This document shows positions 4,134 through 23,080 of a stretch of DNA of 54,410 nt, piece after piece. Both the position numbers and the translations under genes were made by a program. This DNA is from Desulfobacterales bacterium (GTDB taxonomy: Bacteria; Desulfobacterota; UBA8473), in assembly GCA_016209225.1 (NCBI GenBank), contig JACQWO010000020.1, positions 1-54,410 on the forward strand. The letters run 5' to 3'. Position 1 is the first letter of the stretch. The number at the start of each line of letters is the position of its first letter. The notes below the pieces were generated by a model. It was not told the origin of the DNA. It saw only the letters and a list, made by a program, of their open reading frames with translations, and searched no databases.

Positions 4134-4134
4134 C

Positions 4135-6387: not shown

Positions 6388-6451
6388 CCATTTAAGGGTT
6401 AGCTTCTCTGCAATTCACACACTGGACTTTAGATACCAGACTTTTCTGTAA

Positions 6452-6573
6452 CCGTTCACGGTTCCAGTTTACAGTTCACGGTTTAATTACAACAGCAGGC
6501 TTAAGCCCGCTGTTTATATAAAGCTTGAAGCATTTTTGCCAACTGTTAACTGCAAACCGTAAACTGTGAACGG
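6452..6573. repeat. Imperfect long inverted repeat with nested hairpin
   Basis: The left arm (6452-6484, beginning ccgttcacggttccagttta) faces a right arm ending ccgtaaactgtgaacgg at 6573. Shared blocks are ccgttcac, agtttac and cggttt, with two short insertions in the left arm. Between the arms lies a near-perfect hairpin, acagcaggctt / aagcccgctgt (6492-6513). The structure sits between a plus-strand and a minus-strand gene, so it may act as a two-way terminator or be a small non-autonomous element. The rest of 6388-6669 shows nothing else. Confidence 0.6.
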
Positions 6574-6669
6574 ATACCCTTTATCTTTATGTAATCTCTG
6601 GCCACTTTCTCCCCTTCAGTCTAATGTCTGAATCACAGATACACCATCCTTACCTTTCCTCGCCGGGCA

Positions 6670-7890
6670 TTACTTAGGGCTCCTCCATTCAGTCATTGAT
6701 ATAAACTTTCCTGTGGCCGGCTCGGCCTTAAATATCTTCCAGGTACTTCCACCGTTGTGGTCTGTGGGGCCGTAATCTATAGGACCCGTAAGTCCTCCCG
6801 TATCAAAGCTCTTCATTCCTTCTAAACTATTTACCAGAGCCTCTCCATCGAGGTTCCTGCCTGCCCTCCTTATACCCTCGATTTTGACCGTTCCAATAAC
6901 CCAACCGTAAGTATATGTTTTTCCACGATAGGGTTTTTCCGTTCCAGGTTCATATTTGAGGGTAATCTCCCTCATTCTTGCCACACCAGGCCCCTCATCG
7001 TACCATGAGGCCATAGAAGCAACTGCATAGAATAGCTCGGATGCATCACCGGACATGCGAATCACATCTTCATTACAGGTTGCCCAACTGCCAAATAAGG
7101 GAACCTTTAAACCAAACTTCTTTAACTCTCTAAGAAGAACAATCGTTGGCTGGGGGAGTGAACCGCAGATAATAATATAATCAACCTTAGCCTTCTTCAG
7201 GTTCATCACCTGAGAGGTTGCCTCAATGGAACCGGGATTGAGCACCTCCTTTGCTGCAGGCTCTAAATTATAGAATTTGAGCCTCTCCAATCCGGGCACC
7301 AAATCTGCTTTTCCTGCCTCGCTATCAGGAACAACGAATGCAATCCTTGGGTTCTTCGCCTTTAAATCCTTCATGATATAATCCACAATTACCTTCATCT
7401 GGCCAGGGTAGATGTCCTGGATGGTAAAGATATACCGCTCGAAGGGTTTTACCATCCTCTCCGCCGTCGATGCGGGAAAGGTAGTAACCTTTTCCTTCTC
7501 GATACTCTTCAACAGGGCAACAGCCCCATTGGTGCTTGTAGGCCCAATTAAAGAAATAACCTCATCCCGGAAGAGCAATTTTTTGAAGGAAGATATAGCC
7601 ATAGGTATAGAATAACGGTCATCCTCCACGATCAACTTGATCTTCCTTCCATGTATGCCACCCTGTTCGTTAACGAATCGAGTCAGGCTTCTAAGTCCTG
7701 CGGTCAAAGGAATGACCGCATTTGCAGCAGGCCCTGTCTGATCGAGTATGATCCCCACCTTTATCGTGTCATCCGTTACCCCCCTGACCCTACCGGCATA
7801 GCCATATGCCGAAATTCCGAATAGCATAATAGCCATTAAAACCCAGATTGAAAACCTCTGAAAATTCACTAAAGATGTCCTTTTTTTCAT
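6670..7890 (-). CDS. Periplasmic ligand-binding protein, LivJ/Peripla_BP_6 type (array copy 1)
   Basis: The last gene of the array in transcription order. I place the start at the ATG at 7890 (MKKRTSLVNF, 406 aa) because aagggggag stands right before it; a longer frame begins at 7944 but has no such site. A signal peptide ends near residue 32 (AYGYA). The mature protein begins GRVRGVTDDTIKVGIILDQT, the usual first strand and T-G-P turn of branched-chain amino acid type binding proteins. GGIHGRKIKLIVEDDRYSIP follows. The ligand-loop motif is GPTSTNG, and the hinge-side motif is SWYDEGPG. The protein ends W-R-S-P-K. Ligand unknown; amino acids, amides or small organic acids are typical for the family. 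57 nt separate it from copy 2. Confidence 0.9.
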   Translation of the reverse strand: MKKRTSLVNFQRFSIWVLMAIMLFGISAYGYAGRVRGVTDDTIKVGIILDQTGPAANAVIPLTAGLRSLTRFVNEQGGIHGRKIKLIVEDDRYSIPMAISSFKKLLFRDEVISLIGPTSTNGAVALLKSIEKEKVTTFPASTAERMVKPFERYIFTIQDIYPGQMKVIVDYIMKDLKAKNPRIAFVVPDSEAGKADLVPGLERLKFYNLEPAAKEVLNPGSIEATSQVMNLKKAKVDYIIICGSLPQPTIVLLRELKKFGLKVPLFGSWATCNEDVIRMSGDASELFYAVASMASWYDEGPGVARMREITLKYEPGTEKPYRGKTYTYGWVIGTVKIEGIRRAGRNLDGEALVNSLEGMKSFDTGGLTGPIDYGPTDHNGGSTWKIFKAEPATGKFISMTEWRSPK

Positions 7891-7947
7891 AACTCCCCCT
7901 TTCTGTCTTTTCCGTATTGTCAAATATAAATCATTAAATACCATATG

Positions 7948-9168
7948 CTAATCTACGGGCTTCCTCCATCCAGTTACAGGAACAATTTGCTTTGTCTTCA
8001 CATCAGCCTTATAAATCCTATGATAATCTATCGGCTTATGGTCATTGGGTCCGTAATCGACAATGCCGCATATTCCCTGTGTGTCAAACCCTCTTATCTT
8101 TTCGTATCCTCCTACCAGAGTCTCCCCATTTAAATCTCTGCCGGCATTCTTGAGAGCTTCAACAATCAGCATAGCAGCAAACCACCCTTGCACATAGTTC
8201 GTATCCCGACTCCCTGAACCCGGGTGATATGTAAGAGTCACTTTCCGGAGCTTATTCATTCCGGGACTATCCTCATGCCACAAGCCAAACGCGTTAACAC
8301 CCATCATGTTCCTTGCAGCATCACCTGCCAGTCTCACAGTAGGGTCTACACATCCATACTGAACCGTAAAAGAGGTAGAGGGAAAACCTAATTTCTTCGC
8401 ATCTCTCAGGAATGATGCCATGTTACCGATATACCCGTGGACAATAACATAGTCCGGGGCAACTCTCTTTAGGTTGAGTATCTGGGAACTGCAATCGCCT
8501 GCCCCTACGGGTATGACCACTTCGGCAAGTAACTTTATACCGCTGGCTTTTGCTTCCTCTCTCACCGAGTCGCGCGTATCTTTGCCCGCAGCAATATCAG
8601 GGTAGGCCGAAGCTATTCTCAGACTTTGACTTTTTATCTTCATATCATTTAAAAGATAGTCAAATATCAGCTTCACTTGATCACTGTAAAAAGGAAGGGG
8701 AGTGAAGATATACCTTCTCACCGGCTGAAAAAAATCCTTGTTGTTTGTTACAGCCATAAGGGGTATCTTATCGTTCTCGCAAAGCGGGATAATTACATGG
8801 GTATGCCCCGCCCCAGATGCCGCCATGAGAGTCAGCACCTTATCCCTGAACACGAGCTTCTTAAAGGCCGCCAATGCCAAAGGTATAGAAAGGCGGTCGT
8901 CTTCAAGGATATGCTCTATCTTCCTGCCATGAATACCTCCCTGGTCATTTATGTATCTGAAATACGTCCTTATTCCTTCCGCGCAAGGCACCCATATATC
9001 GGCGACCGGACCGGTCAGGTCTCCTACCACTCCCAACTTTATGGTGTTATCTGTTACACCCCTTACTTCTCCGGCATAACCAGAAACAACAGTCAAAAAC
9101 AGGAAGACAGGTACTATGATTAAGACCGATAAAAAATGATACCCTCTAAAAAAACATCTTTCCATCAT
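7948..9168 (-). CDS. Periplasmic ligand-binding protein, Peripla_BP_6 type (array copy 2)
   Basis: A 406-residue secreted protein. The ATG follows aaaggaggagatc. The signal peptide (MMERCFFRGY, then a hydrophobic run) is cleaved near residue 32 (SGYA). The mature N-terminus GEVRGVTDNTIKLGVVGDLT has Gly-Asp-Leu where copy 1 has Ile-Leu-Asp before T-G-P. The ligand loop reads AASGAGHTHV instead of the GPxSxG form, and the hinge motif is LWHEDSPG. Both features, and the tail IDYHRIYKAD, are shared with copy 3, so these two form a subgroup and are probably neighbouring duplicates that have since diverged. Ligand unknown. Confidence 0.9.
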   Translation of the reverse strand: MMERCFFRGYHFLSVLIIVPVFLFLTVVSGYAGEVRGVTDNTIKLGVVGDLTGPVADIWVPCAEGIRTYFRYINDQGGIHGRKIEHILEDDRLSIPLALAAFKKLVFRDKVLTLMAASGAGHTHVIIPLCENDKIPLMAVTNNKDFFQPVRRYIFTPLPFYSDQVKLIFDYLLNDMKIKSQSLRIASAYPDIAAGKDTRDSVREEAKASGIKLLAEVVIPVGAGDCSSQILNLKRVAPDYVIVHGYIGNMASFLRDAKKLGFPSTSFTVQYGCVDPTVRLAGDAARNMMGVNAFGLWHEDSPGMNKLRKVTLTYHPGSGSRDTNYVQGWFAAMLIVEALKNAGRDLNGETLVGGYEKIRGFDTQGICGIVDYGPNDHKPIDYHRIYKADVKTKQIVPVTGWRKPVD

Positions 9169-9189
9169 GATCTCCTCCTTTCAGAAATA

Positions 9190-10380
9190 TCATTTTTCAG
9201 GTTTTCTCCATCCTGAAATAGGGATAAATCTCTTTTCCTCCGTATCCGCTTTATAAAACCGATGACTATCTATTAGTTTATGGTCGTCTGGGCCAAATGT
9301 TACCACGCCGCAGATCCCTTGTGTATCAAAGTCTCTAATGGCCTCCAGCCCCTTTAGGTAAGTCTCTCTGGTGAGATCTCTTCCCGCATTCTTAAAGGCT
9401 TCACAGAATACTATCCCTGCAAGCCAACCTTGAAAAAAATAGGAACTCCGACGATGAACATTCGGATCATATGCCAAAGAGGCTTTTCTTAATTTACTTA
9501 CACCAGGGGTGTTCTCGTCCCAGGTGCCAAAACAATTAATAGCAAGTAATCCTTTAGCTGCTTTTCCAGTTATTGCCATAACCTCATCGGAACATCCGTA
9601 CTGATTTACTATAATTGGCGTGGAAATCCCCAATCTGTATGCAGCCTTTACAATAGAAGAGGTATCAACAACCAGTCCGTGAATAAAAACGATGTCCGGC
9701 TCGAACTGCTTCATGTTAAGCATCTCAGAGGTATAGTCCACAGCAGTAAGGGAAAAGACTACCTCTTTATACTTTTTTACCGGATATGCCTTGACCAGTT
9801 CCCGAACAGCATCTCTGGTGTCCTTACCTGAAGCCGTATCAGGATACATAAGGGCAATGGCAGGATTCTTGAGTTTCATATCGCCAAAGATATATTCCAT
9901 AACCAACTTTGCCTGATCTTCATACCAGGGAATTAGACTGAATAGATATTTTCTTGCCGGCACAAAGAGCTTCTTTACCCCTGATGCTGCAAGGAGTGGG
10001 ATCTTCTCTTTTTCTACAAGGGGAACAAGGGCTGCAGTATGGCCAACCCCTGAAGCTGCCTGAAGGACAAAAATCTTATCTTTATAGACCAACTTTTTAA
10101 AACACGATAGGGCAAGTGGTATCGAATACCTATCATCCTCGAGGATGTAATCTATTTTCCTGCCGTGTATACCCCCTTCATCATTCACCATTTTGAAGTA
10201 GGATTTAGCCCCATGGGCTATCTGAATCCAGCCTTCCGCAATAGGTCCTGTCAAATCGCCCATTAAGCCTACCTTTACCGTATCTTTTGTTACACCTATG
10301 TCTTCTCCTGCTTGAACAGGGATTGTGCCAAAAAGCACAATCGCTACCATAGCCAAAAAGATATACACTATCCTTTTCAT
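9190..10380 (-). CDS. Periplasmic ligand-binding protein, Peripla_BP_6 type (array copy 3)
   Basis: A 396-residue protein. The ATG follows aaaggagggcaataga. The signal peptide is cleaved after VQA (residue 24). The mature part starts GEDIGVTKDTVKVGLMGDLT and has GGIHGRKIDYILEDDRYSIP. Its ligand loop AASGVGHTAAL pairs it with copy 2, as does the C-terminal block D-T-Q-G-I-C-G-V-V-T-F-G-P-D-D-H-K-L-I-D. The hinge motif is TWDENTPG. The gap to copy 2 is only 21 nt, which suggests translation from one message. No lipobox Cys is present, so it is free in the periplasm rather than a lipoprotein. Confidence 0.9.
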   Translation of the reverse strand: MKRIVYIFLAMVAIVLFGTIPVQAGEDIGVTKDTVKVGLMGDLTGPIAEGWIQIAHGAKSYFKMVNDEGGIHGRKIDYILEDDRYSIPLALSCFKKLVYKDKIFVLQAASGVGHTAALVPLVEKEKIPLLAASGVKKLFVPARKYLFSLIPWYEDQAKLVMEYIFGDMKLKNPAIALMYPDTASGKDTRDAVRELVKAYPVKKYKEVVFSLTAVDYTSEMLNMKQFEPDIVFIHGLVVDTSSIVKAAYRLGISTPIIVNQYGCSDEVMAITGKAAKGLLAINCFGTWDENTPGVSKLRKASLAYDPNVHRRSSYFFQGWLAGIVFCEAFKNAGRDLTRETYLKGLEAIRDFDTQGICGVVTFGPDDHKLIDSHRFYKADTEEKRFIPISGWRKPEK

Positions 10381-10430
10381 TCTATTGCCCTCCTTTCGTT
10401 TACTTTAGGGAATAAAAAACGGCAGAACCT

Positions 10431-11654
10431 TCATTCAACAGTTGGTGGTCTACGCCAATCAGTTATGGGCAGAAGTTTTCCTGTTGGAGGATCAGCCTTG
10501 AAAAGCTTACAGTAATCTAACCCTTTGTGGCTTTTTGAGGTATAGTTAATTGGTCCACATAGACCTTTTGTATCCAGATTGCGAATCATTTCCAATGCTT
10601 CTACAAGGGCTTCTCCATTCAGATTCTTGCCAGCCCTCTTGATACCTTCATAAAGGATACTTGCAGTAACCCACCCTACAGTGTATTGCTTGCTTCTGTA
10701 TGGTTTCTCCGTACCAGGATGGTATCTTAGGGTTATCTCCCTCACCCTGGCCATACCAGGGCCTTCATCATACCAGGAGCTGAAAGCATGGGCCCCAATA
10801 TAATTCTTTGATGCATTTCCTGCTATTCTTACAGTATCCTCAACGCAATTGGGGAATGTCCCAAAGACCGGGATGTCAAGGCCAAACTTCTTCATCTCTC
10901 GCACCATCAAAATAACCCCTTGGGATGTATGGTGCATCATTAGATGGGTAGGCTTATATTTTTTGATACGCAACACCTCGGAAGATGCTTCCAGAGCTGC
11001 CATTGGGATAATCTCCAGGCGGAGCTCCAATTTATAAAACTCTGCCCATTTTTTGGCAGATCCCATAGTAAGCTTGCCTGATTCAGTATCCGGGTAACAG
11101 AAAACAATCATTGGATCTTTCGCTTTCATGTCCTTTACGATGTACTCAAACATAACACCAATCTCATCATCATAGAAATCGACAGGTAGGAAGATATACC
11201 GCCTGAAGGGATTTACCAGAATTTTATCGGCAATGGGCGGTACCGTGGGAAGCTTTAATTTCTCAATTTCCCTTAGCAGCGTCCTGGTGCCTCCAACTGA
11301 GCCAGGGCCCATAAGCGCCAGGATTCGATCTTTAAAAAGCAGCTTTTTGAAGGCAGCCATTGTGACAGGTATGGAATAACGATCATCTTCCACTATAAGC
11401 CTTATCTTCCTTCCATAAATACCTCCTTCATCGTTTACATATCTGGTATAGTTTCTTACCCCCTCGGTTAATGGCAGAGTAATATCGGCTATTGGACCAG
11501 TTTGATCACATATCAATCCAATGGTAATAGTAGAATCTGTAACTCCCCTAATCTCGTCTGAATAGCTGGTGGAACCGGCTACTAAAATCGAACCCACACT
11601 GAAAATACATGCAAGAAAAAGATAGCAACCGGAAAGTAGTAACCCCCCTTTCAT
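10431..11654 (-). CDS. Periplasmic ligand-binding protein, Peripla_BP_6 type (array copy 4)
   Basis: I start this protein at the ATG at 11654 (MKGGLLLSG, 407 aa), about 8 nt after aaagggg. An in-frame GTG at 11663 touches the ribosome site and is less likely. The signal peptide is long, with a hydrophobic stretch to about residue 26. The mature N-terminus DEIRGVTDSTITIGLICDQT leads to T-G-P. GGIYGRKIRLIVEDDRYSIP is close to copies 1, 7 and 8, as are the loop GPGSVGGT and the hinge motif SWYDEGPG. The tail (GPINYTSKSHKGLDYCKLFK) is most like copies 7 and 8. It belongs to the GPxSxG subgroup. Confidence 0.9.
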   Translation of the reverse strand: MKGGLLLSGCYLFLACIFSVGSILVAGSTSYSDEIRGVTDSTITIGLICDQTGPIADITLPLTEGVRNYTRYVNDEGGIYGRKIRLIVEDDRYSIPVTMAAFKKLLFKDRILALMGPGSVGGTRTLLREIEKLKLPTVPPIADKILVNPFRRYIFLPVDFYDDEIGVMFEYIVKDMKAKDPMIVFCYPDTESGKLTMGSAKKWAEFYKLELRLEIIPMAALEASSEVLRIKKYKPTHLMMHHTSQGVILMVREMKKFGLDIPVFGTFPNCVEDTVRIAGNASKNYIGAHAFSSWYDEGPGMARVREITLRYHPGTEKPYRSKQYTVGWVTASILYEGIKRAGKNLNGEALVEALEMIRNLDTKGLCGPINYTSKSHKGLDYCKLFKADPPTGKLLPITDWRRPPTVE

Positions 11655-11703
11655 ATTTTTCACCCCTTTCTATCAAAATCCTTAATTGTACCCCCTCCTT
11701 TAT

Positions 11704-12897
11704 CTATTTCGCCTTCACCCAATCTGTAACCGGGGTAAAGTAGCCCTTCTCTATGTCAGCTTTATATAACCTTGCAGAACCGTTGCCCTTATGATCCGTG
11801 GGGCTATAGCTAATAGGGCTGGTAAGACCTTTCATATCCAGATTTTTAATGGTCTCAAGGGCATTTACAAAGCTCTCCCCATCCAAATCTTTGCCTGCCC
11901 TCTTTATTCCCTCATGGGTAATCCTGGCTGTAATCCATCCTTTTATATAGTATCTGTTTGGTGGTTCCATATTGGGGTAGTACTTAAGCGTTATTCTCTT
12001 CAACTCAGCAACACCTTCCGTGTCGTCAAACCATGATCCAAACGCCCCTGCTCCGTATACCTTCTCCGCCAATTTTCCTCCAGCCTTTGCCAACTCATCA
12101 CCAAAGATATGAAAAGATCCGAAAATCACAGGGGAATAGCCCAGTCTGTGTGTATCCCGCAGAAGGGCCAGGAAGGTACCGGTGATAGATAGGTTTATGA
12201 TATGGGTGGCATCCTTTTTTCTTAAACTGAGGGACTGAGAACTTGCATCTACCGCCCCAGGGGCTAAAATTTCTCCTTCTACCAGCTGGACATTGTACTC
12301 TTTCGCCTTCATCTGGGCCACTTTAAGGCCAGATTTGCCGTACTCTACATCAGGACTTACAATAGCAATCCTTAGGTCTTTCGGTCTCAAGGTATTAACG
12401 ATATAGTCCATAATTATCTTGATTTCGTCTTTGTTGTCATTTCCTGGAGTAAATACGTATCTTCTCACCGGATCGGTCATAGTCCAGGACCAGCTCACGG
12501 TATTTACCGGTATCCTGTTTTTCTCGATATTTGGGAACAACGCAGTATTTTGACCGGTCCCGCCACAGGACAAAATGGTCAATGCCCTATCCTTAAAAAC
12601 CAGCTTTTTAAAAGCTGCAAACGCTCTGGGAATAGTATATCCGTCATCTTCGAGCACCAATTCGACCTTCCTCCCATTGATACCCCCCTGATCATTAACG
12701 TATCGAAAGTAATTCCTCACTGCCTTTCCATAGGGAATGCCCAGGGAAGCCGCTGGGCCCGTTTGATCCATTATTGCGCCAACTTTAATAATGTTTCCTG
12801 AAACTCCTCTTGTCTCATCAGCGCTCAAAAGGTTACTTGAGGCGATCAGAAAAAATGCGACTAATAGCAAAGATAAGATGGTTTTTCCCCTTTTCAT
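11704..12897 (-). CDS. Periplasmic ligand-binding protein, Peripla_BP_6 type (array copy 5)
   Basis: A 397-residue protein. The ATG follows aaaggagtaataac. The signal peptide ends near LLSA (residue 26). The mature start is DETRGVSGNIIKVGAIMDQT. The ligand loop is CGGTGQNTALF, placing it in the GGTGQ subgroup with copies 6, 10 and 12. An unusual aromatic pair in TVSWSWTMTDPVRRYVF follows the loop, where other copies have small residues, so the pocket may differ strongly. The hinge motif is SWFDDTEG. It ends W-V-K-A-K, without the W-R-x-P tail of the others. Ligand unknown. Confidence 0.9.
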   Translation of the reverse strand: MKRGKTILSLLLVAFFLIASSNLLSADETRGVSGNIIKVGAIMDQTGPAASLGIPYGKAVRNYFRYVNDQGGINGRKVELVLEDDGYTIPRAFAAFKKLVFKDRALTILSCGGTGQNTALFPNIEKNRIPVNTVSWSWTMTDPVRRYVFTPGNDNKDEIKIIMDYIVNTLRPKDLRIAIVSPDVEYGKSGLKVAQMKAKEYNVQLVEGEILAPGAVDASSQSLSLRKKDATHIINLSITGTFLALLRDTHRLGYSPVIFGSFHIFGDELAKAGGKLAEKVYGAGAFGSWFDDTEGVAELKRITLKYYPNMEPPNRYYIKGWITARITHEGIKRAGKDLDGESFVNALETIKNLDMKGLTSPISYSPTDHKGNGSARLYKADIEKGYFTPVTDWVKAK

Positions 12898-12935
12898 GTT
12901 ATTACTCCTTTCTCGAAGTTTTCAAACCTTTAGTG

Positions 12936-14162
12936 CTATTTCAATGGCCTTCTCCATCCTGTAAAAGGGATTAGTGCTTCTTTATCCAAATCACCTTTGT
13001 AGAATTTGCTCTCATTCCCTGCTTTGTGGTTTGTTGAAGTGTATGTAACTGGGGCGCTAAGCCCTCCTGTATCAAAATTTTTCAATGTTTCAAGGGCAGT
13101 TACAAAGGTCTCATTATTCAAGTCTTTTCCCGCCCGTTTCATCCCCTCAGCTAAGATCATCCCATTTTGCCAGCCCTGGGTATAAAACTTGTTACGGTAG
13201 GGTTTTTCACTACCCGGTTTGTACTTCAGGGTAATCTCCCTTAACTTTGCCATCCCTGGGGTGTCGTCATACCAGGAACTCAATGTATGGGCTGCAACAT
13301 AGCCTTCAGCCGCTTTTCTAGCGCCCCTTAGGACAGCCTCATCGCACGCATAGTAAAAACCAATAAACTGAGGGGCAAATCCAAACTTTCTTGAGTCCCT
13401 CAATATGCTGATTGCCGATCCAACATCCTCAACCAGGATGACATAATCAGCGCCTGTCTTTTTGATCTGAAGCACCTGTGAGGTGGTATCTAAGGCTGCC
13501 AAACCAACTACTATTTCTCCAGCAAGCTTAAGACCATAGGAATTAGCCGCGGCTCTGGATGCAACCAGATTGGTCTTACCAAACTCAAGATCTGGATATA
13601 TGACAGCTATCCTGGGATTTTTTGCACGCAGATCTGTCATTATGTAATCGAAAATCACTTTCATCTGGTCTTCATAGGTAGCCCCAGGGTTGAAGATATA
13701 TCTTCTAAACGGATTAACCATCTTCTCTGCCAAGCTACCAACCATAACAGGAATCTTCTCCTTTTCAACGTGAAAAAAGAGGGCCATGGCCTGACCTGTT
13801 CCACCGAGAAACATCAAAGCAAGCGCTCTGTCCTTATACATCAATTTCTTGAAGGCCGCTATTGAGCCTGGTATGGTATACCTATCATCCTCTACCAACA
13901 CACTAACCTTTCTTCCGTTAATACCTCCCTGGTCATTGATATGCCTAAAGTAATTTCTAATAGCTTCTGTATACGGAATACCAACAAAGGCGGCAGGGCC
14001 TGTTTGATCGATTATTACTCCGATCTTTATCGTGTCATTAGTAACGCCTCTCACCTCTTCCGCAAAAGACGATCCTTCACCCATAAATAACAAAAACGAA
14101 AAAACAAAAACGAAAAATGTCAATAGTGTTTTTAAAGAACCCTTTAACAATTTCTTTTTCAT
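12936..14162 (-). CDS. Periplasmic ligand-binding protein, Peripla_BP_6 type (array copy 6)
   Basis: I start at the ATG at 14162 (MKKKLLKGS, 408 aa) because taggaggtatact stands directly before it. The longer frame from 14180 would contain this ribosome site within its coding part. The signal peptide ends near SSFA (residue 34). The mature part starts EEVRGVTNDTIKIGVIIDQT. The ligand loop LGGTGQAMALF and hinge SWYDDTPG join it to the GGTGQ group. It is the first gene after a 513-nt gap, so it probably opens a second transcription unit covering copies 6 to 1. It ends W-R-R-P-L-K. Confidence 0.9.
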   Translation of the reverse strand: MKKKLLKGSLKTLLTFFVFVFSFLLFMGEGSSFAEEVRGVTNDTIKIGVIIDQTGPAAFVGIPYTEAIRNYFRHINDQGGINGRKVSVLVEDDRYTIPGSIAAFKKLMYKDRALALMFLGGTGQAMALFFHVEKEKIPVMVGSLAEKMVNPFRRYIFNPGATYEDQMKVIFDYIMTDLRAKNPRIAVIYPDLEFGKTNLVASRAAANSYGLKLAGEIVVGLAALDTTSQVLQIKKTGADYVILVEDVGSAISILRDSRKFGFAPQFIGFYYACDEAVLRGARKAAEGYVAAHTLSSWYDDTPGMAKLREITLKYKPGSEKPYRNKFYTQGWQNGMILAEGMKRAGKDLNNETFVTALETLKNFDTGGLSAPVTYTSTNHKAGNESKFYKGDLDKEALIPFTGWRRPLK

Positions 14163-14675
14163 AGTATACCTCCTATTCATTCAAATATTCAAAAATCCAT
14201 CTTCGTTTACACAGCTACATACACACCGAAGTGCCATGAGGAAAGACTTAAATAAGTTATGTGCTTTCCTACATATAGACTTTTGACATTTGCAACTAGA
14301 AAAATAAAGGTAGGGAAAAGACTCCAAAAATACTGGTTAAAGAAGTGCATTGTTACTCTTTGAGTAAGAGACCTTTAACTTATTGAATACGAATAGGAGG
14401 AACTAGAGAATAGAAGATACTGAAAATGTGTGGGGGCATTAATGAGCAGAGATTCCACGCGCATAAGAACAGGAATTTGATTTTCCATCATATGCCGACA
14501 GAAATTTTGAATAGATCAAAGGCTTCATTCCATTGACGCTTCTATCACCTCCTTTTTTGTTTATATCTTGATGGCTTCGTAAAAAGTCCATCTGTGGCGT
14601 TGCACTGCATCCTTAGAAAGCATACCACTTCCCGAGGAGAAAAAGCAAAAAACGGCAACTATTTGCTGACAGTGG
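14163..14675. other. Long gap inside the binding-protein array
   Basis: The gaps elsewhere in the array are 19-120 nt; this one is 513 nt and holds no credible gene. On the minus strand an orphan ribosome site (aaaaaaggaggtgat, near 14545) precedes only a few codons, as if a gene start had survived without its gene. At 14570-14590 the string gatggcttcgtaaaaagtcc resembles a dispersed intergenic repeat I associate with deltaproteobacterial genomes, but this cannot be verified here. A short hairpin (ttactctttgagtaa, 14352-14366) is also present. The gap may carry a promoter for copies 6 to 1; I see no clear -35/-10 pair. Confidence 0.4.
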
Positions 14676-15887
14676 CTACTCTTTCATATCTGGAGCCTTT
14701 CTCCAATCCGTGATAGGGACAAGCTTCCCGCTTTCTGGATCGGCATGGAATACCTTATTGTACTTTAATCCTTCGTGGCTCTTTGAGGTATAGGTAATGA
14801 GCCCACATATACCTTTTGTATCAAAATCCTTTATGGTCTCCATTGCATCTATGAATCTTTCCCCATCGAGGTTCCTACCTGCCCTTTTGATCCCTTCATG
14901 GACGAGGTTGGCCATAACCCACCCTATTGAGTAATTCTTGCTCCTATAGGGTTTTTCTGTTCCGGGATAATAGTGGAGCGTTATCTTTCTTGCCTCGGCC
15001 ATCCCGGGGGTATCATCGTACCAAGAACTGAAGGGATGTACCCCATAGAAATTATCAGCCGCCTTTTTCGCTATGTTGATAACATCCTCTGAAGTACCTG
15101 AATATGTTGCATATATTTTCGCATTAAGCCCAAACCTCTTAGAGTCTCTGAGGAATAAAGCTATAGTTGGGATAGAGTGAACCACTATTATGTAGTCTGC
15201 TTTTGCCCTTTTTATACTCAATACATCTGAAGTAGTATCCAAAACATTTAAGGGAAGCATAAACATATCAACCTCAATTCCAAAAAACTGAGTCCACTCT
15301 TTTACAGCCTTTAAGATAACTGCTTTTACTCCTGCATCGACACAAACAAGAGCTATTTTGGGTTTCTTTGGTTTTGCCTCCTGAAGTATATAATCAAAGA
15401 TGATTCCTATCTCATTATCATACGTGTCAATGGGCAAGAAAATGTATCTCTTGTAAGGGATAATCATATCTCTATCAGCAGCAAGAGCTAAAGTGGGAAG
15501 CTTCTGGCTCATTATTTGATTCATCAAGGCTCTAGTCTCACCAGTTGAGCCAGGTCCTAAAAGGGTGAATATTTCATCCTTATAGATCAGCTTTTTAAAT
15601 GCCGCCACCGCCGCTGGAATAATATAACGGTCGTCTTCTATTATAAGCTGAATCTTTCTTCCATGAATTCCACCCTGATCATTTACATATCTTGTGTAAT
15701 TTCTAATTCCCTCCACTACAGGCTTTATGATTGATGCTATAGGTCCAGTAAGATCGAAAATCCCCCCTATTTTGATGGTGGTCTCTGTAACCCCTTTTGC
15801 TGATGCTGAATATCCTTTAGATGCTATAGAAAGCATACAGACAACAGTAAAGATCACTGCCAATAGAATATTTCCTTTCATCTTCAT
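14676..15887 (-). CDS. Periplasmic ligand-binding protein, Peripla_BP_6 type (array copy 7)
   Basis: A 403-residue protein. The ATG follows aaggaggggatgattt. The signal peptide is cleaved near GYSA (residue 28). The mature start is SAKGVTETTIKIGGIFDLT, leading to T-G-P. The ligand loop is GPGSTGETRAL and the hinge SWYDDTPG. The segment RYIFLPIDTYDNEIGIIFDY and the tail GLITYTSKSHEGLKYNKVFH place it with copies 4 and 8. It is the last gene before the 513-nt gap, so it may close the upstream transcription unit. It ends W-R-K-A-P-D-M-K-E. Confidence 0.9.
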   Translation of the reverse strand: MKMKGNILLAVIFTVVCMLSIASKGYSASAKGVTETTIKIGGIFDLTGPIASIIKPVVEGIRNYTRYVNDQGGIHGRKIQLIIEDDRYIIPAAVAAFKKLIYKDEIFTLLGPGSTGETRALMNQIMSQKLPTLALAADRDMIIPYKRYIFLPIDTYDNEIGIIFDYILQEAKPKKPKIALVCVDAGVKAVILKAVKEWTQFFGIEVDMFMLPLNVLDTTSDVLSIKRAKADYIIVVHSIPTIALFLRDSKRFGLNAKIYATYSGTSEDVINIAKKAADNFYGVHPFSSWYDDTPGMAEARKITLHYYPGTEKPYRSKNYSIGWVMANLVHEGIKRAGRNLDGERFIDAMETIKDFDTKGICGLITYTSKSHEGLKYNKVFHADPESGKLVPITDWRKAPDMKE

Positions 15888-15955
15888 AAATCATCCCCTC
15901 CTTACCTAATAAGTTGTCAGCTTTTAGCTATCAGCAACATTAAGAAAATAATGAA

Positions 15956-17152
15956 CTATTTTTTTGCAGGCGGCAGTTTCCACTCAGTGATGGGGATAAG
16001 CTTGCCGCTTTTTGGATCAGCCTTGAAAAGCTTATTGTAGTTCAACCCATAATGCATTGTAGGGGTATACGTTATAAGGCCACATATCCCCTGGGTATCT
16101 AAATCCTTTATGGTCTCTAGTGCGGCCACCAGTTTTTCCCCATCCAGATCCTTGCCGGCCCTCTTTATCCCTTCACATAGAATAAGAGGTACAACCCATC
16201 CCATAGAATAGCTCTTAATGCTATAGGACTTCTCAGCACCAGGATTGTATTTCAGGCTTATCTTTCTTACTTTTGCCATTCCCTGGCTTTCTTCATACCA
16301 GGAACTGTAAGGACTGGCGCCCACAAAATTCTTTGATGCCTCACCGCCTATCCTGATAACGTCCTCTGTACATGCAGCAGATGTACCGAACATAGGTACA
16401 TCAAGGTCAAACTTCTTCATATCCTTGAGAACAGCAGCAGCACCCGGTGCAACGTGATGTATCAAGATATGGGTTACCCCTGCCCTCTTCATGCTCAGAA
16501 CCTGAGAGGTAACATCAATAGCGCTTATAGGTATTGTCTCGTGATGCAGTTTTAAACCATAGGATTCAGCCCAGGCTACAGCCGATGCCCTGACAACCTT
16601 GCCCGATTCGACATCAACAGTGGCCATAGCGATCTTTGGATTTTTAGACTTTAATTTGTTAACAATATAATCAAGGGTCACACCCCATTCATTATCGTAG
16701 AATCCGCTGGTTGGAAATACATACCTTTTATACGGCTTCATTACCGACTCATCAGGGGCCCATGGCAATGTAGGGATATTCTCTTTCTCAATATGTCGAA
16801 ACAATACCTTGGTTTCACCAACAGAGACAGGGCCTAAAAGTGCCAATATCTGGTCCTTGAATAACAGCTTTTTAAAGGCTGCTATTGATGCAGGAATAGA
16901 ATAACGGGAATCCTCCGCGACCAATTTAATCTTTCTTCCATTTATACCACCTTCATCATTTATATGGCGAATAAAGTTCTTATAAGCCTCGACCATTACA
17001 ACCCCGATATTCGAAGTAGGACCCGTATGGTCGGCTATTGAGCCGATTATTATCGAATCTTTTGTCACACCTCTTGCTTCTTTACTGTAGGCTAAATTAC
17101 CCTGTGAAATGAGTAAAACCAAAACCAGAAAACCAACAAACCTCATTTTCAT
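15956..17152 (-). CDS. Periplasmic ligand-binding protein, Peripla_BP_6 type (array copy 8)
   Basis: I choose the ATG at 17152 (MKMRFVGFLV, 398 aa), 7 nt after aaagggg; an in-frame TTG lies two codons upstream. The signal peptide is cleaved near AYS (residue 23). The mature part opens KEARGVTKDSIIIGSIADHT. The ligand loop is GPVSVGETKVL. Distinctive residues are the Trp in PTLPWAPDESVMKPYKRYVF and the hinge SWYEESQG instead of D-D-T-P-G. It is closest in motifs to copy 7. A hairpin (17180-17212) separates it from copy 9. Confidence 0.9.
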   Translation of the reverse strand: MKMRFVGFLVLVLLISQGNLAYSKEARGVTKDSIIIGSIADHTGPTSNIGVVMVEAYKNFIRHINDEGGINGRKIKLVAEDSRYSIPASIAAFKKLLFKDQILALLGPVSVGETKVLFRHIEKENIPTLPWAPDESVMKPYKRYVFPTSGFYDNEWGVTLDYIVNKLKSKNPKIAMATVDVESGKVVRASAVAWAESYGLKLHHETIPISAIDVTSQVLSMKRAGVTHILIHHVAPGAAAVLKDMKKFDLDVPMFGTSAACTEDVIRIGGEASKNFVGASPYSSWYEESQGMAKVRKISLKYNPGAEKSYSIKSYSMGWVVPLILCEGIKRAGKDLDGEKLVAALETIKDLDTQGICGLITYTPTMHYGLNYNKLFKADPKSGKLIPITEWKLPPAKK

Positions 17153-17179
17153 AACCAATCCCCTTTCTTGAAATTTTTA

Positions 17180-17212
17180 CCCTGTTAATCCGTCTTATGC
17201 GGACTAACGGGG
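17180..17212 (-). terminator. Stem-loop between array copies 9 and 8, possible terminator or processing hairpin
   Basis: cctgttaatccg (17181-17192) pairs with cggactaacggg (17200-17211) through 12 base pairs including two G-U pairs, with a 7-nt loop. In the sense of transcription (minus) it is followed by gtaaaaattt, a weak U-rich tract. It could cause partial termination or shield an RNA end, so that copies 12 to 9 and copy 8 onwards are made in different amounts. Confidence 0.5.
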
Positions 17213-17213
17213 T

Positions 17214-18428
17214 TTACTTTGTAACCGGCATCCTCCACCCTGTAACAGGCATAAACCTGATCTTTTCTATATCAGCTTTGTAAACCCTAACATACTTCTG
17301 GCCACGGCGGTTTTCTTTACCAAAGGTGATAGTACCACATATCCCCCCTGCATCAAAATCCTTTATCGTTTCCATAGCCTTCATAAGGGTCTCTCCGCTA
17401 AGGTCTTTTCCAGCTCTTTTCATCCCCTCCGTGAATACCATAGCAGCAACCCAACCCTGAAAATAGCCGCTATCTGTCATGATATCTAAGCTCTTATGGT
17501 AATTAAGAGTAATTTCTCTTACTTTAGCCATCCCAGGAGTATCTTCATGCCACTGGCCATAGATATTGGAAACATATCCGTTCTTTGCCCCTTTACCGGC
17601 AAGCTTTATCAAATCCTGACTGCAAACCCACTGGGTACCCAAAAAAGTAGGCTCATAACCAAACTTCCTCGCATCCCTCATCAATCCTGCTGCCGTCACA
17701 GCTATATGCTGAACAATAACATAATCAACCTTCGCCTTTTTCAAATTCAGTATCTGAGAGGTAGCATCCAATGCCCCTACATTCAGTACCTCTCTGTGCA
17801 TATCCAAATCATAAAATTTGGCTCGTTCTATTGCTCCCTGCATACCGGCCTTTCCAAACTCGATATCAGGATAGACCACCCCAAACTTAGGATTCTTCGC
17901 CTTCAGGTCTCTAATTGCATAATCCATTAAGACAGCAGCGGCATCCTCGTGGGTAGCCCCTGTACAGAAGATATATTTCTTTGGGGGAGAAGAAAGCCTC
18001 AATTCAAGACCTGCCGGAATATTGGGAATCTTTTCTTTTTCTATCTGATTGAAAAGGGCAATGTTGCCGCCACCCTGCCCTGTGCCAATAAAGGCAAGTG
18101 CCTTGTCCCTGTAAACAATCTTTTTAAAGGCTGCAACAGACAATGCTACATTTGCACGGTCATCTTCCACGATTACCTTTACCTTTCTCCCATGGATACC
18201 CCCTTGATCGTTGATGTGTTGAAAATATGTTCTAAATGACGCTATACCATACTTCCATGTGTCTGCCACTGGTCCGGTTACATCACCTATGATTGCCATC
18301 TTTATTGTATCATCGGTTACACCCCTAACATCCTCTCCATACAATCGGCTACTCAGTGACATGATCAAAATAAATGACAAAAAACCAACAACAGACAACT
18401 GATACCTGGAATTTAGTAATCGTTTCAT
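17214..18428 (-). CDS. Periplasmic ligand-binding protein, Peripla_BP_6 type (array copy 9)
   Basis: I start at the ATG at 18428 (MKRLLNSRYQ, 404 aa) since gagggga lies 6 nt upstream; the longer frame (18443) would swallow that site. The signal peptide is hydrophobic to about residue 28. The mature part opens EDVRGVTDDTIKMAIIGDVT. The ligand loop GTGQGGGNIALF is unique in the array, mixing features of the GPxS and GGTGQ forms, and is followed by PAGLELRLSSPPKKYIF. The hinge QWHEDTPG has a His, as in copy 2. It ends W-R-M-P-V-T-K. Ligand unknown. Confidence 0.9.
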   Translation of the reverse strand: MKRLLNSRYQLSVVGFLSFILIMSLSSRLYGEDVRGVTDDTIKMAIIGDVTGPVADTWKYGIASFRTYFQHINDQGGIHGRKVKVIVEDDRANVALSVAAFKKIVYRDKALAFIGTGQGGGNIALFNQIEKEKIPNIPAGLELRLSSPPKKYIFCTGATHEDAAAVLMDYAIRDLKAKNPKFGVVYPDIEFGKAGMQGAIERAKFYDLDMHREVLNVGALDATSQILNLKKAKVDYVIVQHIAVTAAGLMRDARKFGYEPTFLGTQWVCSQDLIKLAGKGAKNGYVSNIYGQWHEDTPGMAKVREITLNYHKSLDIMTDSGYFQGWVAAMVFTEGMKRAGKDLSGETLMKAMETIKDFDAGGICGTITFGKENRRGQKYVRVYKADIEKIRFMPVTGWRMPVTK

Positions 18429-18447
18429 GATCAATCCCCTCATCTTC

Positions 18448-19647
18448 TCACTCTTTTGTCTTTATCCAGTCACTAATGGGATGAAATATCCCCTTTTCCA
18501 CATCCGCCTTATAGAACTTGCAATACTCCGATGCCTGATGCTTATCAGGCCCAAAGGTCACATTGCTGCTCAGACCCTGCATGTCAAAGTCCTTCATCCC
18601 TTCCCATGCCTTTATCAGACCTTCTCTAGCAAGGTTTTTACCTGTCCTATTGAGTCCTTCATGTACAATCATGCACTCAGACCATCCCTGGATATATCCT
18701 CTTGGACGGATCTCCTTTTCCGTGCCCGGATGGTATCTCAAGGTTATTTCTCTCACTACCTTTGTCCCAGGAGTACTATCATACCAGGCTGCAAAGGAAT
18801 TGGTTGCATGAAAATTTTCCGCTGCTTTGCCTGCCAGTTCCAGCATAGTCTCTATACATGTATACTTAGTCCCTAAATAGAATGCCTTCAAACCAAATTT
18901 CTTTGCATCCTTCAAAAAGACAGCACTGCTCGAGGGAGTTAGGTGGAGGATTAAATGGGTGGGGTTGACCTTTTTTAGTCGAAGCACCTCAGAACCCGCC
19001 TCAATGGCCCCTGGGGAGAGGATAATGTCCGCCGTAAGTTCCAAACCATATTTCTTTGCCTGTTCATTTGCAGAACGGGAACCCACCTTACCATGTTCTG
19101 TATCTGGCCTTACCAATCCGATCTTTGGGTCCTTCACTTTAAGGACATTTATCAACCAGTTGAATATGATCTCGATCTCATCCTCATAAGTAGCACCATT
19201 AGTAAAATGATATGGCAGCGTCGGACGCACGAAAATCCTCGATGTACTCGTCACAAAATTGGGAATCTTTAATTTGTTAAATTGGGGTACTAAGGCAAGC
19301 ATTTGCCCTGTCCCCCCAATCTCCATAAACATAAATACCTCATCTCTGTAAACAAGCTTTTTAAATGCTGCCACATGGAGTGGAATAGTATAACGATCAT
19401 CCTCAACGATTATCTTAACCTTCCTTCCATGGATGCCTCCCTGGTCGTTTACGTTCTTAAAATATGTCCTGATAGCCTTCGGAGCCGGAGTCTGGAGATC
19501 AGCTGTAGGACCGGTCATGTCGACTATTACACCGATCTTAATGGTGTCTTTGGGGCGAGCAGGGTCTTCTTCTGCCACTGCAAAGTGAACACCTGAAAAT
19601 ACCAGAATTAAAACCAAACCAACAAATAACATCTCTCTTATTTTCAT
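18448..19647 (-). CDS. Periplasmic ligand-binding protein, Peripla_BP_6 type (array copy 10)
   Basis: A 399-residue protein. The ATG is preceded by aagggagaataaaccct. The signal peptide is cleaved near AVA (residue 25). Its mature start, EEDPARPKDTIKIGVIVDMT, lacks the R-G-V-T block found in most other copies. The ligand loop is IGGTGQMLALV, followed by SRIFVRPTLPYHF, where the usual R-R-Y-I-F is altered. The hinge is AWYDSTPG. The tail S-S-N-V-T-F-G-P-D-K-H-Q-A-S-E-Y-C resembles the relic at 22954-23058. Only 19 nt separate its stop from copy 9. Confidence 0.9.
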   Translation of the reverse strand: MKIREMLFVGLVLILVFSGVHFAVAEEDPARPKDTIKIGVIVDMTGPTADLQTPAPKAIRTYFKNVNDQGGIHGRKVKIIVEDDRYTIPLHVAAFKKLVYRDEVFMFMEIGGTGQMLALVPQFNKLKIPNFVTSTSRIFVRPTLPYHFTNGATYEDEIEIIFNWLINVLKVKDPKIGLVRPDTEHGKVGSRSANEQAKKYGLELTADIILSPGAIEAGSEVLRLKKVNPTHLILHLTPSSSAVFLKDAKKFGLKAFYLGTKYTCIETMLELAGKAAENFHATNSFAAWYDSTPGTKVVREITLRYHPGTEKEIRPRGYIQGWSECMIVHEGLNRTGKNLAREGLIKAWEGMKDFDMQGLSSNVTFGPDKHQASEYCKFYKADVEKGIFHPISDWIKTKE

Positions 19648-19767
19648 AGGGTTTATTCTCCCTTGATAAAAAAATTAGCCGTTGTACCAGCATTAAATAA
19701 ACCAGCTCTCAATTCCTTATTCAAATTATCGCTTATTGCTTACCTTTTTGGAGACTCATCATCTGTC

Positions 19768-20982
19768 TTATTTTGATGGCTTCATCCAGTCCGTTATTGC
19801 TATCAGTCGTTTGTTTTGCACGTCGGCCTTGTATAGCTTCACATATTCTCCACCTGTCCTCATGCCAGGCCCAAGGGTTATAGGTCCGGTTAAACCATCC
19901 GTTTTAAAATCCTTAAAACTCTCGTAAGCCCTTATCAGACCTTCTCTGTTTAAATCCTTACCTGCCCGCTTCAGGGCCTCGACCAATACGACACTATGTG
20001 TCCAACCCTGAACGAACCAACTAGGTTGTTCATTTTTCTTAGGATTGTATTTAGAATTTATCTCCTTCATCTTTGTTATACCAGGAACATTCTCATACCA
20101 TCTGCTGAAGGAATTGACGATATGAAAGTTCTTTGAGCCATCCCCTGTCAATCTCACGAGATCTTCGGCACCGGCATATTTTGTTCCTAAATACATGGGG
20201 TCGTATCCGATTTTCATAGCACTCCTGACGAATGCAGTCGCATTCCCGGTAGTTGTGTGGAGCAATACGTAATCACAGCTGGCCATCTTCAAGATGAGTG
20301 CCTCTGATGTAGCATCTATGGCACCAGGAGAAACTATAACCTCTCCCACCAGCTTGGTGTGGCGCAATTCAGCCTGTTGGCTGGCTGTCCGGGAACCAAC
20401 CTTTCCATGCTCTGTATCAGCCCTAACCAAGCCTATCTTTGGATTCTTTGCCTTTTTAACATCATATATGTAGTCGAACAGTATCTTTATTTCATCTTCG
20501 TAACTCGTTCCGTGTGTGAAGTAATATTTCCTGGGAGGGATAACTAGAATGTCCGAAGTAGGTGGTCCCAGTACAGGAACTTGCTCTTTGGCTATCATAG
20601 GCTGTAATGCCAATAGTCCCCCGGTCGACCCTCCAAGAAACATAGTAAATACTTGATTTCTATAAATCAGTTTCTTGAATGCAGAAATCATCAGGGAAAC
20701 CGTATACCGATCATCTTCATGGACCCATTTAAGCTTCCTCCCGTGAATACCTCCCTGGTCATTCACATATCTAAAATAGGTTTTGACACCGTCAGCGAGG
20801 GGGCCTTGAATTTCGACTGTTGGTCCTGTCTGGTCAAGTATCATACCAACCATTATAGTATCTTCGGTTACACCAGGGACATTCGCCGCTTCCCCCGGTG
20901 TAACAGTAAAAAGAGCAACAATTGACATAACAAAGAAAACAAATAAAGGTATTAAGAACACATAGGATGATCTTTTTTTCAT
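19768..20982 (-). CDS. Periplasmic ligand-binding protein, Peripla_BP_6 type (array copy 11)
   Basis: A 404-residue protein. The ATG follows aaaaaaaggaggaattcc, one of the strongest ribosome sites in the array. The signal peptide is cleaved near GEAA (residue 33). The mature part starts NVPGVTEDTIMVGMILDQT. It has WVHEDDRYTV where other copies have I-V-E-D-D-R-Y-S-I. The ligand loop LGGSTGGLLAL is again different, and the hinge is RWYENVPG. The region KNPKKNEQPSWFVQGW type (shifted by indels) is specific to it. Like copy 10 it has K-V-G-S-R-T/S-A after E-H-G, so the two are probably sisters. A 120-nt gap follows. Confidence 0.9.
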   Translation of the reverse strand: MKKRSSYVFLIPLFVFFVMSIVALFTVTPGEAANVPGVTEDTIMVGMILDQTGPTVEIQGPLADGVKTYFRYVNDQGGIHGRKLKWVHEDDRYTVSLMISAFKKLIYRNQVFTMFLGGSTGGLLALQPMIAKEQVPVLGPPTSDILVIPPRKYYFTHGTSYEDEIKILFDYIYDVKKAKNPKIGLVRADTEHGKVGSRTASQQAELRHTKLVGEVIVSPGAIDATSEALILKMASCDYVLLHTTTGNATAFVRSAMKIGYDPMYLGTKYAGAEDLVRLTGDGSKNFHIVNSFSRWYENVPGITKMKEINSKYNPKKNEQPSWFVQGWTHSVVLVEALKRAGKDLNREGLIRAYESFKDFKTDGLTGPITLGPGMRTGGEYVKLYKADVQNKRLIAITDWMKPSK

Positions 20983-21031
20983 GGAATTCCTCCTTTTTTT
21001 TATGTTTTTTTATTACTCATGCTGAATAAGT

Positions 21032-22237
21032 CTACTTTCTCTCTAAAGGCTTAAGCCATCCAGTAATAGGAACAAAAATAGCTTTATCTAAATCTGTCTT
21101 ATAGAATTGGGAGAACTGGTTAGGTTTGTGCTGGGTTGGGCTATAAGTGATAAGACCACAAAGGCCTTTTGTATCAAAATCCTTCAAACTCTCTAACGCA
21201 TCTACAAGATTATCTCCATTCAAATCCTTGCCTGCCCTTTTTATAGCTTCACCAAGGATTAAAGATGTAACCCAGCCCTGGGTATAGAACTTGGTCTGTA
21301 TCTTTGTGTCAGGCTGATATTTCAAGGTTATCTCTCTCATATTCGTAACCCCTGGTGTATCATCGTACCATGAGTTGAATGAATGTACCCCAATGAACTT
21401 TTCTGCTGCCTTTCCGGCTACCTTTATCAAATCCTCTCCACAGGTATAATAATCGCCTATAAAGGTGGGTTTATAGTCAAATTTCCTTGCATCCCTGAGT
21501 AGAATTATTGCCTGTCCAACACCGCTGTGGGCAATAACATAATCTGCCTTTGCCCTTTTCAGAGAGAGAACCTGTGAAGTGGCTTCAAGTATATTCAAAC
21601 CAACGATCTCCTCGGCTACCATCTCTATATTATAAAACTTTGCCCTCTCCCTTGCAGCCCTTAAGCCTGTCTTTCCGTGCTCTGTATCCGGATAAGTAAA
21701 GGCTATTCTGGGGTTTTTAACATTTAGTATCTTAATTATATAGTCAAATATACATTCCACCTCATCATCATAGCTGGCCGCCGGTATAAAGACATGTCTC
21801 CTCACCGGATTGACCAGACTCTCTGCCAGACTGACAGTTATAACCGGAACCCTCTCCTTTTTTATCTGGGAGGCAAGTGCCATTGTCTGCCCCGTCCCCC
21901 CTCCATACAATATTGAGAGTACCCCATCTCTAAAGACGAGTTTCTTGAAACCGGCTATGGCACCAGGGATGGTATAATGGTCATCCTCAATGATAAGCTT
22001 TATCTTCCTGCCATTGATACCACCCTGTTCGTTTATATGCCGGATATAGTTTCGAGTTGCCTGTACTAAGGGAATTGTCATGTTTGTAACAGGCCCCGTC
22101 ATGTCTATTATTACACCGACTTTAATAATATCTTTCGTGACTCCGCTGTCTTTTTCAGCAGATACTCCCGTAACCAATAAAAGAACCAGAGCCAAAGTTA
22201 AAATCGCACTAAACCCCCAATAACCTTTTCTAACCAT
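21032..22237 (-). CDS. Periplasmic ligand-binding protein, Peripla_BP_6 type (array copy 12)
   Basis: A 401-residue protein. The ATG follows caggaggtttgaatt. The signal peptide is cleaved near GVSA (residue 27). The mature start is EKDSGVTKDIIKVGVIIDMT. The ligand loop is GGGTGQTMALA, the hinge SWYDDTPG, and the tail G-L-C-G-L-I-T-Y-S-P-T-Q-H-K. It belongs to the GGTGQ group with copies 5 and 6. It is the first intact gene of the array in transcription order; the truncated copy at 22328 lies just upstream. It ends W-L-K-P-L-E-R-K. Confidence 0.9.
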   Translation of the reverse strand: MVRKGYWGFSAILTLALVLLLVTGVSAEKDSGVTKDIIKVGVIIDMTGPVTNMTIPLVQATRNYIRHINEQGGINGRKIKLIIEDDHYTIPGAIAGFKKLVFRDGVLSILYGGGTGQTMALASQIKKERVPVITVSLAESLVNPVRRHVFIPAASYDDEVECIFDYIIKILNVKNPRIAFTYPDTEHGKTGLRAARERAKFYNIEMVAEEIVGLNILEATSQVLSLKRAKADYVIAHSGVGQAIILLRDARKFDYKPTFIGDYYTCGEDLIKVAGKAAEKFIGVHSFNSWYDDTPGVTNMREITLKYQPDTKIQTKFYTQGWVTSLILGEAIKRAGKDLNGDNLVDALESLKDFDTKGLCGLITYSPTQHKPNQFSQFYKTDLDKAIFVPITGWLKPLERK

Positions 22238-22327
22238 AATTCAAACCTCCTGAAAAATTTATTGATACATGGTTCCCATAAAAGTTTGGAGAATATACCA
22301 ACCAAGCAAACAGGATCTTCTTGATTG

Positions 22328-22687
22328 TCAATCCCTAAATGCCGGTTCCCTAAATCCGGTAATGGGTATAAAGGTCTGCTTTTCAATGTCGGTTTTGTAA
22401 AGTTTATTAGTCCTCCCACCTTTATGATCATTTTTACTATAGCTTACAGGACCTGAAATATCACCCGTGCTAAAGTTTTTAAAGGTTTCATAAGCCTCAA
22501 CCAAGGTATCGGGTGTTAAATCTCTACCCGCCCTCTTTAATCCTTCTGCACAGATCATAGAGGTTACCCACCCCTGGGTATAATTTCTGATCTTCGGCTT
22601 TGTGCCAGGTTGATACTTCTCTGTAATCTTTCTCATTTGAATCATTCCAGTGGTATCATCAAACCAATAGCCATAGAAACTCTTTTT
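22328..22687 (-). pseudogene. Truncated Peripla_BP_6 binding protein (C-terminal third only)
   Basis: An open frame of 119 codons begins right after an in-frame stop (22688-22690) and reads KKSFYGYWFDDTTGMIQMRK, continuing to a normal C-terminus (ITGFREPAFRD). The YWFDDTTG block equals the hinge motif of the intact copies, so about 270 N-terminal residues, including signal peptide and ligand loop, are gone. The remaining codons are intact without stops, so the truncation may be fairly recent. An internal ATG (22645) could start a 105-residue piece, but without a signal peptide it would not work as a binding protein. Confidence 0.85.
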
Positions 22688-22953
22688 TTAACCTTGGGGC
22701 TATCTTTTTGATATTTCAGAAGTTACAGTTACAGGGATGTCATCAAAACGAGATGTCAGAGGATAACAGTAGAAATAGTCAGAGGTCATGGGGAGATTCC
22801 ATCAGGTATCGAAGATGAACCTCGAATTCGGAAACGAATAAGAAATGTAGGAGGGTATGGGAGACAACTGACTAGAATTTAAAGGGTTATTTGAATTATC
22901 ACCTACCTTATCTAGATATTATAAAACTAACTGTTTTGGGGAAATTACTAAAG
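22688..22953. other. Gene-free stretch between two binding-protein relics
   Basis: No open frame, RNA or repeat is convincing here. It lies between two C-terminal relics of the array family and is probably leftover, decayed array DNA. I could not read further family motifs in any frame. Confidence 0.4.
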
Positions 22954-23058: not shown

Positions 23059-23080
23059 AAAAGATTGCGAAAAATAAATC

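Follow-up and report, generated by a model that had tools for sequence, protein, structure and literature searches.

Orphan receptors of the TTT/Bug (TctC) family have expanded far beyond the number of their membrane partners in Bordetella, Cupriavidus and Rhodoplanes sp. Z2-YC6860, the longest tandem array of divergent TTT copies being a run of nine genes in Rhodoplanes (PMC5994714). For HisQMP and Cbc, as these systems are cited in PMC7731109, one ATP-binding cassette (ABC) permease works with several receptors, some of which are encoded elsewhere. Most COG0683 receptors of Rhodopseudomonas palustris bind aromatic, fatty or dicarboxylic acids and not branched-chain amino acids, and in the same organism three receptor genes (RPA3723-3725) stand with one ABC transporter near beta-oxidation genes, the pim operon being named alongside (PMC3223731). 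Which pump an orphan receptor serves and which ligand it binds is a long-standing puzzle. Here, we analyzed a stretch of 54,410 nucleotides (the window, contig C93 in our numbering) from a subsurface Desulfobacterales bacterium, in which twelve genes for LivJ-type periplasmic binding proteins (PBPs, in the following also termed receptors) stand head to tail at 6670-22237. We consider it fairly probable that this array is a receptor block for an ABC importer that is encoded elsewhere in the genome, a LivFGHM-ligase set on contig C33, and that is shared by many receptors.

The window is one of 95 contigs of a 3.1 Mb genome which is 98.5% complete. An earlier interpretation of the letters alone (the sequence-only reading) had described twelve intact binding-protein genes in one direction and a thirteenth at 27787-28986. 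Both claims were borne out: all twelve open reading frames (ORFs) of the array, located on the minus strand and 396-424 residues long as listed mechanically, match PF13458 (Peripla_BP_6) with E values between 3e-39 and 8e-61, and the gene at 27787-28986 (minus strand, receptor 13) is a further Peripla_BP_6 match from the same clade. Scoring 136-207 bits against a gathering cut-off of 31.7, the 13 receptors belong to the LivJ-type (HAAT) family. Numbered from the low-coordinate end, the array genes lie at 6670-7902 (receptor 1; the listed ORF starts at 7944, this mechanically chosen ATG being probably 5' of the true start), 7948-9168 (2), 9190-10380 (3), 10431-11654 (4; listed start 11663), 11704-12897 (5), 12936-14162 (6; listed start 14180), 14676-15887 (7), 15956-17158 (8; TTG start), 17214-18443 (9), 18448-19647 (10), 19768-20982 (11) and 21032-22237 (12). 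The sequence-only reading had also assigned each gene its own signal peptide and ribosome site; a signal-peptide-like N-terminal segment is present in every array receptor, whereas a recognisable Shine-Dalgarno sequence was found upstream of nearly all genes. In agreement with its statement that transporter genes are lacking, the BPD_transp_2 profile (LivH/LivM) has no match anywhere on the window contig and no ABC ATPase (LivG/LivF) occurs among the window ORFs scanned, i.e. within the window the receptors do not follow the standard LivJHMGF operon layout. Pairwise identities among the 13 receptors of 32-52% (median 40%) exclude an assembly duplication, as had been argued.

The five genomes of the genus that were compared, i.e. 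the present one (G000), X2_MetaBAT.32 (G001), SURF_34 (G002, 73% complete), CG_4_8_14_3_um_filter_43_13 (G003) and G004, are draft assemblies, the named ones being metagenome-derived. In the present genome 41 PF13458 matches stand against 16 LivH/M-type permease proteins (about eight LivHM pairs), and in G004 78 matches stand against 15 such permease proteins; G001, G002 and G003 hold 37, 37 and 23 PF13458 matches, respectively. Other genera of the same family carry 1-3 PF13458 proteins per genome. For comparison, a control genome of the same phylum (G052) has 75 PBPs, yet 131 permeases; in the wider phylum, PBP counts are preliminary candidates for most of the genomes and did not enter the comparison as exact figures. 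Receptors far outnumber their membrane partners in one lineage, and among the genomes examined closely this imbalance is a trait of the genus.

The surplus traces to a single clade, which was defined by scores against a profile built from the 13 window proteins. Against this profile 30 proteins of the present genome score above 475 bits, the next best reaching 246, and the clade comprises 144 full-length proteins in the five genomes, 67 of them in G004. In a tree with outgroups it is monophyletic with a Shimodaira-Hasegawa-like approximate likelihood ratio test (SH-aLRT) support of 90 and is sister to L075, a protein from outside the clade. The 30 members of the present genome fall in 13 runs, one of which is the array.

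A candidate importer is found on contig C33, where genes for LivM (44174-45217), LivH (45304-46203), an AMP-forming acyl-coenzyme A (acyl-CoA) ligase (46239-48080), LivG (48067-48885) and LivF (48929-49720) follow one another. This set (44174-49720) has no adjoining PBP in the present genome, and a PBP remnant sought beside its permease genes gave nothing beyond one 5-bit match, too weak to interpret. The nearest relatives outside the receptor clade (L075, L076, L077, L078 and L079) each have a LivH-LivM pair alongside; LivF, LivG and an AMP-forming ligase are also encoded at L075, L077, L078 and L079, the contig of L076 being short. At all five loci LivH and LivM match the C33 set best (40-56% identity) over the seven other pairs of this genome, and the LivM tree agrees with this pairing of the outside relatives and the C33-type permease. 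The permease without a receptor is hence related to the permeases of the clade's outside relatives.

Furthermore, G004 carries the same set at C8:51400-56942, with transporter subunits 94-98% and a ligase 93% identical to those on C33, directly followed by a clade PBP at 57058-58239. In the relatives, full LivHMGF sets adjoining every copy, which would speak against the orphan character of the receptors, were not seen; only this G004 locus has one. The C33-type set is also present in G001 and G003, where it is seen partly on their contigs and without a PBP following, and the basal-most clade member in G004 (C1:208136) has a second LivM and ligase in its vicinity. The simplest history would be that of an ancestral receptor and importer unit in which the receptor gene multiplied and the importer did not. 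From the phylogenetic matching, the copy numbers and the one adjacent example we infer that the dispersed receptors share the C33 importer.

Recent tandem duplication in place was considered for the origin of the array and rejected, the common ancestor of its members on the tree covering 143 of the 144 clade members. This spread of the window members across the clade indicates that the array is a collection of ancient paralogs, few of them mutually close, and no recent local amplification. Gene order is kept in SURF_34, whose contig C30 holds counterparts of nine consecutive array genes; its contig C61 adds at least two. The ratio of nonsynonymous to synonymous substitutions (dN/dS) amounts to 0.10-0.22 in 11 ortholog pairs between the present genome and SURF_34, covering 11 of the 12 array genes, which indicates that the array genes are functional and under purifying selection. 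Receptor 7 shares 71.5% identity with its positional SURF_34 counterpart at a dS of 1.4, the other pairs showing dS values of 0.13-0.40; the replacement of one paralog by another, or gene conversion among the array genes, would account for this divergence.

In order to compare the binding pockets, the ligand contacts of E. coli LivJ, which we take from general knowledge to include Ser79, Thr102, Tyr202 and Glu226, were mapped to ten comparable alignment columns. Glu226 is the residue that binds the alpha-amino group. The entropy of the ten columns is above that of the rest of the alignment (P = 4e-4), and positions 102, 150, 202 and 276 are hypervariable. Array paralogs are 19% identical at the contact positions vs 42% at other positions, whereas cross-genome pairs above 80% identity agree at 93% of the contact positions vs 91% elsewhere; orthologs therefore keep their pockets and paralogs differ. 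Consistently, 30 distinct pocket signatures occur in the 30 proteins of this genome and 66 in the 67 proteins of G004.

The position of Glu226 is acidic in just one of the 144 clade members and is most often occupied by Tyr, Trp, Phe or Gln instead. The residues that bind an alpha-amino acid in a branched-chain amino-acid receptor (LivJ/LivK proper) are hence not kept, and the pocket does not support the LivJ label of the sequence-only reading in the sense of a branched-chain amino-acid binder. The structure model of receptor 6, the sole array member modelled, has a predicted local distance difference test (pLDDT) score of 94.6 and the two-lobe type I periplasmic binding fold. Its nearest solved folds are the fatty-acid receptor 4n03 and the valine-bound 3lkb (query TM-scores of 0.82-0.83), and several further fold matches bind aromatic acids. 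The most likely ligands would be non-amino carboxylic acids whose breakdown proceeds via CoA esters.

Upstream of the array, the minus strand of the window carries two decayed PBP copies that the sequence-only reading had missed. A C-terminal fragment ORF of 105 residues at 22328-22645 lacks a signal peptide and is retained in SURF_34 at C61:12654-12971 (L183). This truncated ORF seems to be under selection, because it has the same length in both species and shows a dN of 0.020 and a dS of 0.234. The second copy is a decayed C-terminal tail at about 22957-23043 (12.4 bits, E 5e-5). It falls into the 435 bp intergenic stretch 22646-23080, upstream of the fragment and the array, which is 96.3% identical and gap-free in comparison to SURF_34, i.e. 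better conserved than the array coding sequence (92%). The stretch has no match to any known RNA family in Rfam and its folding is unremarkable (z-score 0.4); it is possibly a regulatory leader.

Further upstream on the same strand follow genes for an ADP-forming acyl-CoA synthetase of the alpha-subunit type (23081-24577) and for the gamma (24718-25272), alpha (25294-26373; VorB subfamily, over cut-off) and beta (thiamine pyrophosphate-binding; 26699-27493) subunits of a 2-oxoacid:ferredoxin oxidoreductase, and finally receptor 13. In the gap between the alpha and beta genes (26374-26698, minus strand) one frame encodes a ferredoxin-like CxxCxxCxxxCP motif, which probably belongs to a small ferredoxin subunit. 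Strand and spacing suggest that the whole block from 28986 down to 6670 may be co-transcribed; in the range 6000-23500, promoters and terminators were predicted as often as in shuffled sequence. The window furthermore contains a 6S RNA at 49365-49542 and, at the contig edge, the 5' end of a 16S rRNA gene (53888-54410), which could serve to place the organism.

Similar genes recur next to the clade throughout the genus, namely those for acyl-CoA mutases, B12-binding subunits, acyl-CoA dehydrogenases, TetR regulators, glycyl radical enzymes, ADP-forming acyl-CoA synthetases and 2-oxoacid:ferredoxin oxidoreductases (VOR). Operon statistics cover the regions retrieved. Of the acyl-CoA mutases, 12 of 27 in G004 (27 of the 29 matches used) lie at most 3 kb from a clade PBP vs 3.2 expected, and 4 of 16 in the present genome (16 of the 19 matches used) vs 0.7 expected. 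Mutases of the methylmalonyl-CoA type are multiplied family-wide (G000-G007), with 13-30 matches per genome, including genera without the PBP expansion. Among the glycyl radical enzymes near clade PBPs several subfamilies score, every one below its cut-off. Six homologous genes stand near clade PBPs in G004 (L173 2752-5154 and five more loci), the scanned one being a glycyl radical enzyme. Inside the SURF_34 array (L183, C61), a gene at 2222-4726 is similar to CdhA, the alpha subunit of CO dehydrogenase/acetyl-CoA synthase; it scores below the curated cut-off and has homologs near clade PBPs in G001 and G004. At L058 7438-10725 (contig C66 of the present genome) three homologous tandem genes follow a clade PBP, and the scanned one encodes a DctP-type solute-binding protein of the tripartite ATP-independent periplasmic (TRAP) type.

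According to the proposed explanation, a single receptor gene would ancestrally have stood beside a LivF-LivG-ligase-LivH-LivM set. The receptor gene would then have been duplicated and dispersed to 30-67 copies, the importer remaining one complete set, plus a partial second one in G004. Each receptor would be exported by means of a Sec signal peptide and would bind a ligand of its own, probably a non-amino carboxylic acid of the aromatic, branched-chain, fatty or dicarboxylic type, and the loaded receptors would dock on a common LivHM pore. Imported substrates would be converted into acyl-CoA by the co-encoded AMP-forming ligase together with the ligases and oxidoreductases encoded beside the receptor genes, and the resulting acyl-CoA would enter anaerobic oxidation. 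For the broader proposal that the genus diversified its uptake via receptors and not via transporters, with 30-67 receptors of distinct pockets per genome feeding one ligase-coupled LivFGHM, we regard the chances as evenly balanced.

Several observations weigh against a single shared importer. SURF_34 holds many clade PBPs and shows no C33-type permease, possibly owing to its incompleteness, and the receptors are dispersed among different catabolic islands, so that other LivHM pairs or unrelated permeases could serve some of them. Between the present genome and G004 the C33 LivH is 97.7% identical, while two further proteins of the LivH type reach 95.2% and 93.6%; an exceptional conservation of the C33 permease was considered on this basis and set aside as not clearly special. 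Docking of the receptors on the importer and transport through it are, moreover, what we infer from sequence. A division of the receptors among several importers, with subsets working on different LivHM pairs or on other transporter types, would agree with the eight LivHM pairs of the genome, with the missing permease in SURF_34 and with the TTT receptors of Rhodoplanes, which adjoin several transporter families (PMC5994714). We regard it as unlikely, given that at least four of the other LivHM pairs adjoin their own distinct non-clade PBPs and that the outside relatives of the clade are consistently paired with a C33-type permease.

Of the three roles that the sequence-only reading had left side by side, i.e. 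a shared permease, periplasmic scavenging or buffering, and ligand input to sensors, it is the shared permease that gained support, from the receptor-less C33 LivFGHM set and the pairing of the outside relatives with its permease clade. A mainly sensory function, in which receptors with bound ligand would act on histidine kinases or chemoreceptors and control the catabolic genes nearby, appears improbable. Homologous genes directly downstream of two non-orthologous clade PBPs (L061 4022-5887 on contig C64 of the present genome and L185 2451-3998 on contig C16 of SURF_34), the former encoding a histidine kinase, possibly constitute a sensor link, and some TTT receptors are known to act in sensing (PMC5994714). 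The L061 kinase, however, matches a six-helix PilS-like membrane domain and GAF domains and no periplasmic receptor domain, and the neighbours of the clade are mostly catabolic enzymes and TetR regulators. If the proteins acted as periplasmic scavengers or buffers, enriching scarce organic acids and releasing them close to any transporter with no specific docking, both the missing adjoining permease and the very large receptor number would be explained; docking is favoured, and this function made very doubtful, by the phylogeny, which matches the receptors to one permease clade, and by the intact unit of receptor and importer in G004. Least probable is an array of mostly redundant or decaying duplicates retained by chance. 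Two decayed copies in the window and the PBP fragments that are common in the genomes of the relatives point in this direction, but the purifying selection on 11 of the 12 array genes contradicts it, as do the pockets, kept between orthologs and different between paralogs.

Returning to the shared C33 importer, the genus offers a clean case of the orphan-receptor problem, since phylogeny predicts the partner pump, the receptor orthologs are under selection and many receptor genes stand in recognisable catabolic islands. Confirmation would make it an extreme example of a single ABC permease that accepts receptors by the dozen, resembling a receptor repertoire with one shared effector, and would open the docking code and the ligand repertoire to direct tests. 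The automatic annotation of these proteins as branched-chain amino acid receptors would also be corrected.

In comparison with known systems, the locus shares with E. coli LivJ/LivK-LivHMGF the fold, the Sec export and the types of transporter components, whereas Glu226 and other pocket residues are not retained, a permease is missing beside the receptors and an acyl-CoA ligase forms part of the candidate importer. The R. palustris COG0683 receptors belong to the same broad family; at RPA3723-3725 three copies stand beside their transporter, while here twelve stand in a row with none adjoining. As for HisQMP and Cbc, to the extent that these are described in the citing source, several receptors per permease are proposed, with some of the genes elsewhere in the genome; there the receptors are few and experimentally shown, whereas here 30-67 per genome are predicted from sequence. 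With the TTT/Bug receptors the genus shares a lineage-specific surplus over the membrane partners and tandem arrays of divergent copies. Unlike these, the present proteins are assigned by Pfam to the LivJ-type ABC family (Peripla_BP_6) and not to TTT/TctC, and phylogeny points to a candidate for their cognate ABC importer. In the open-licence literature we found no such expansion reported for the LivJ-type family. The expansion is of a known kind, that of orphan binding proteins, here in the LivJ-type ABC family and with one predicted partner, and its array of twelve genes is longer than the nine-gene TTT array of Rhodoplanes, the longest reported one that we found.

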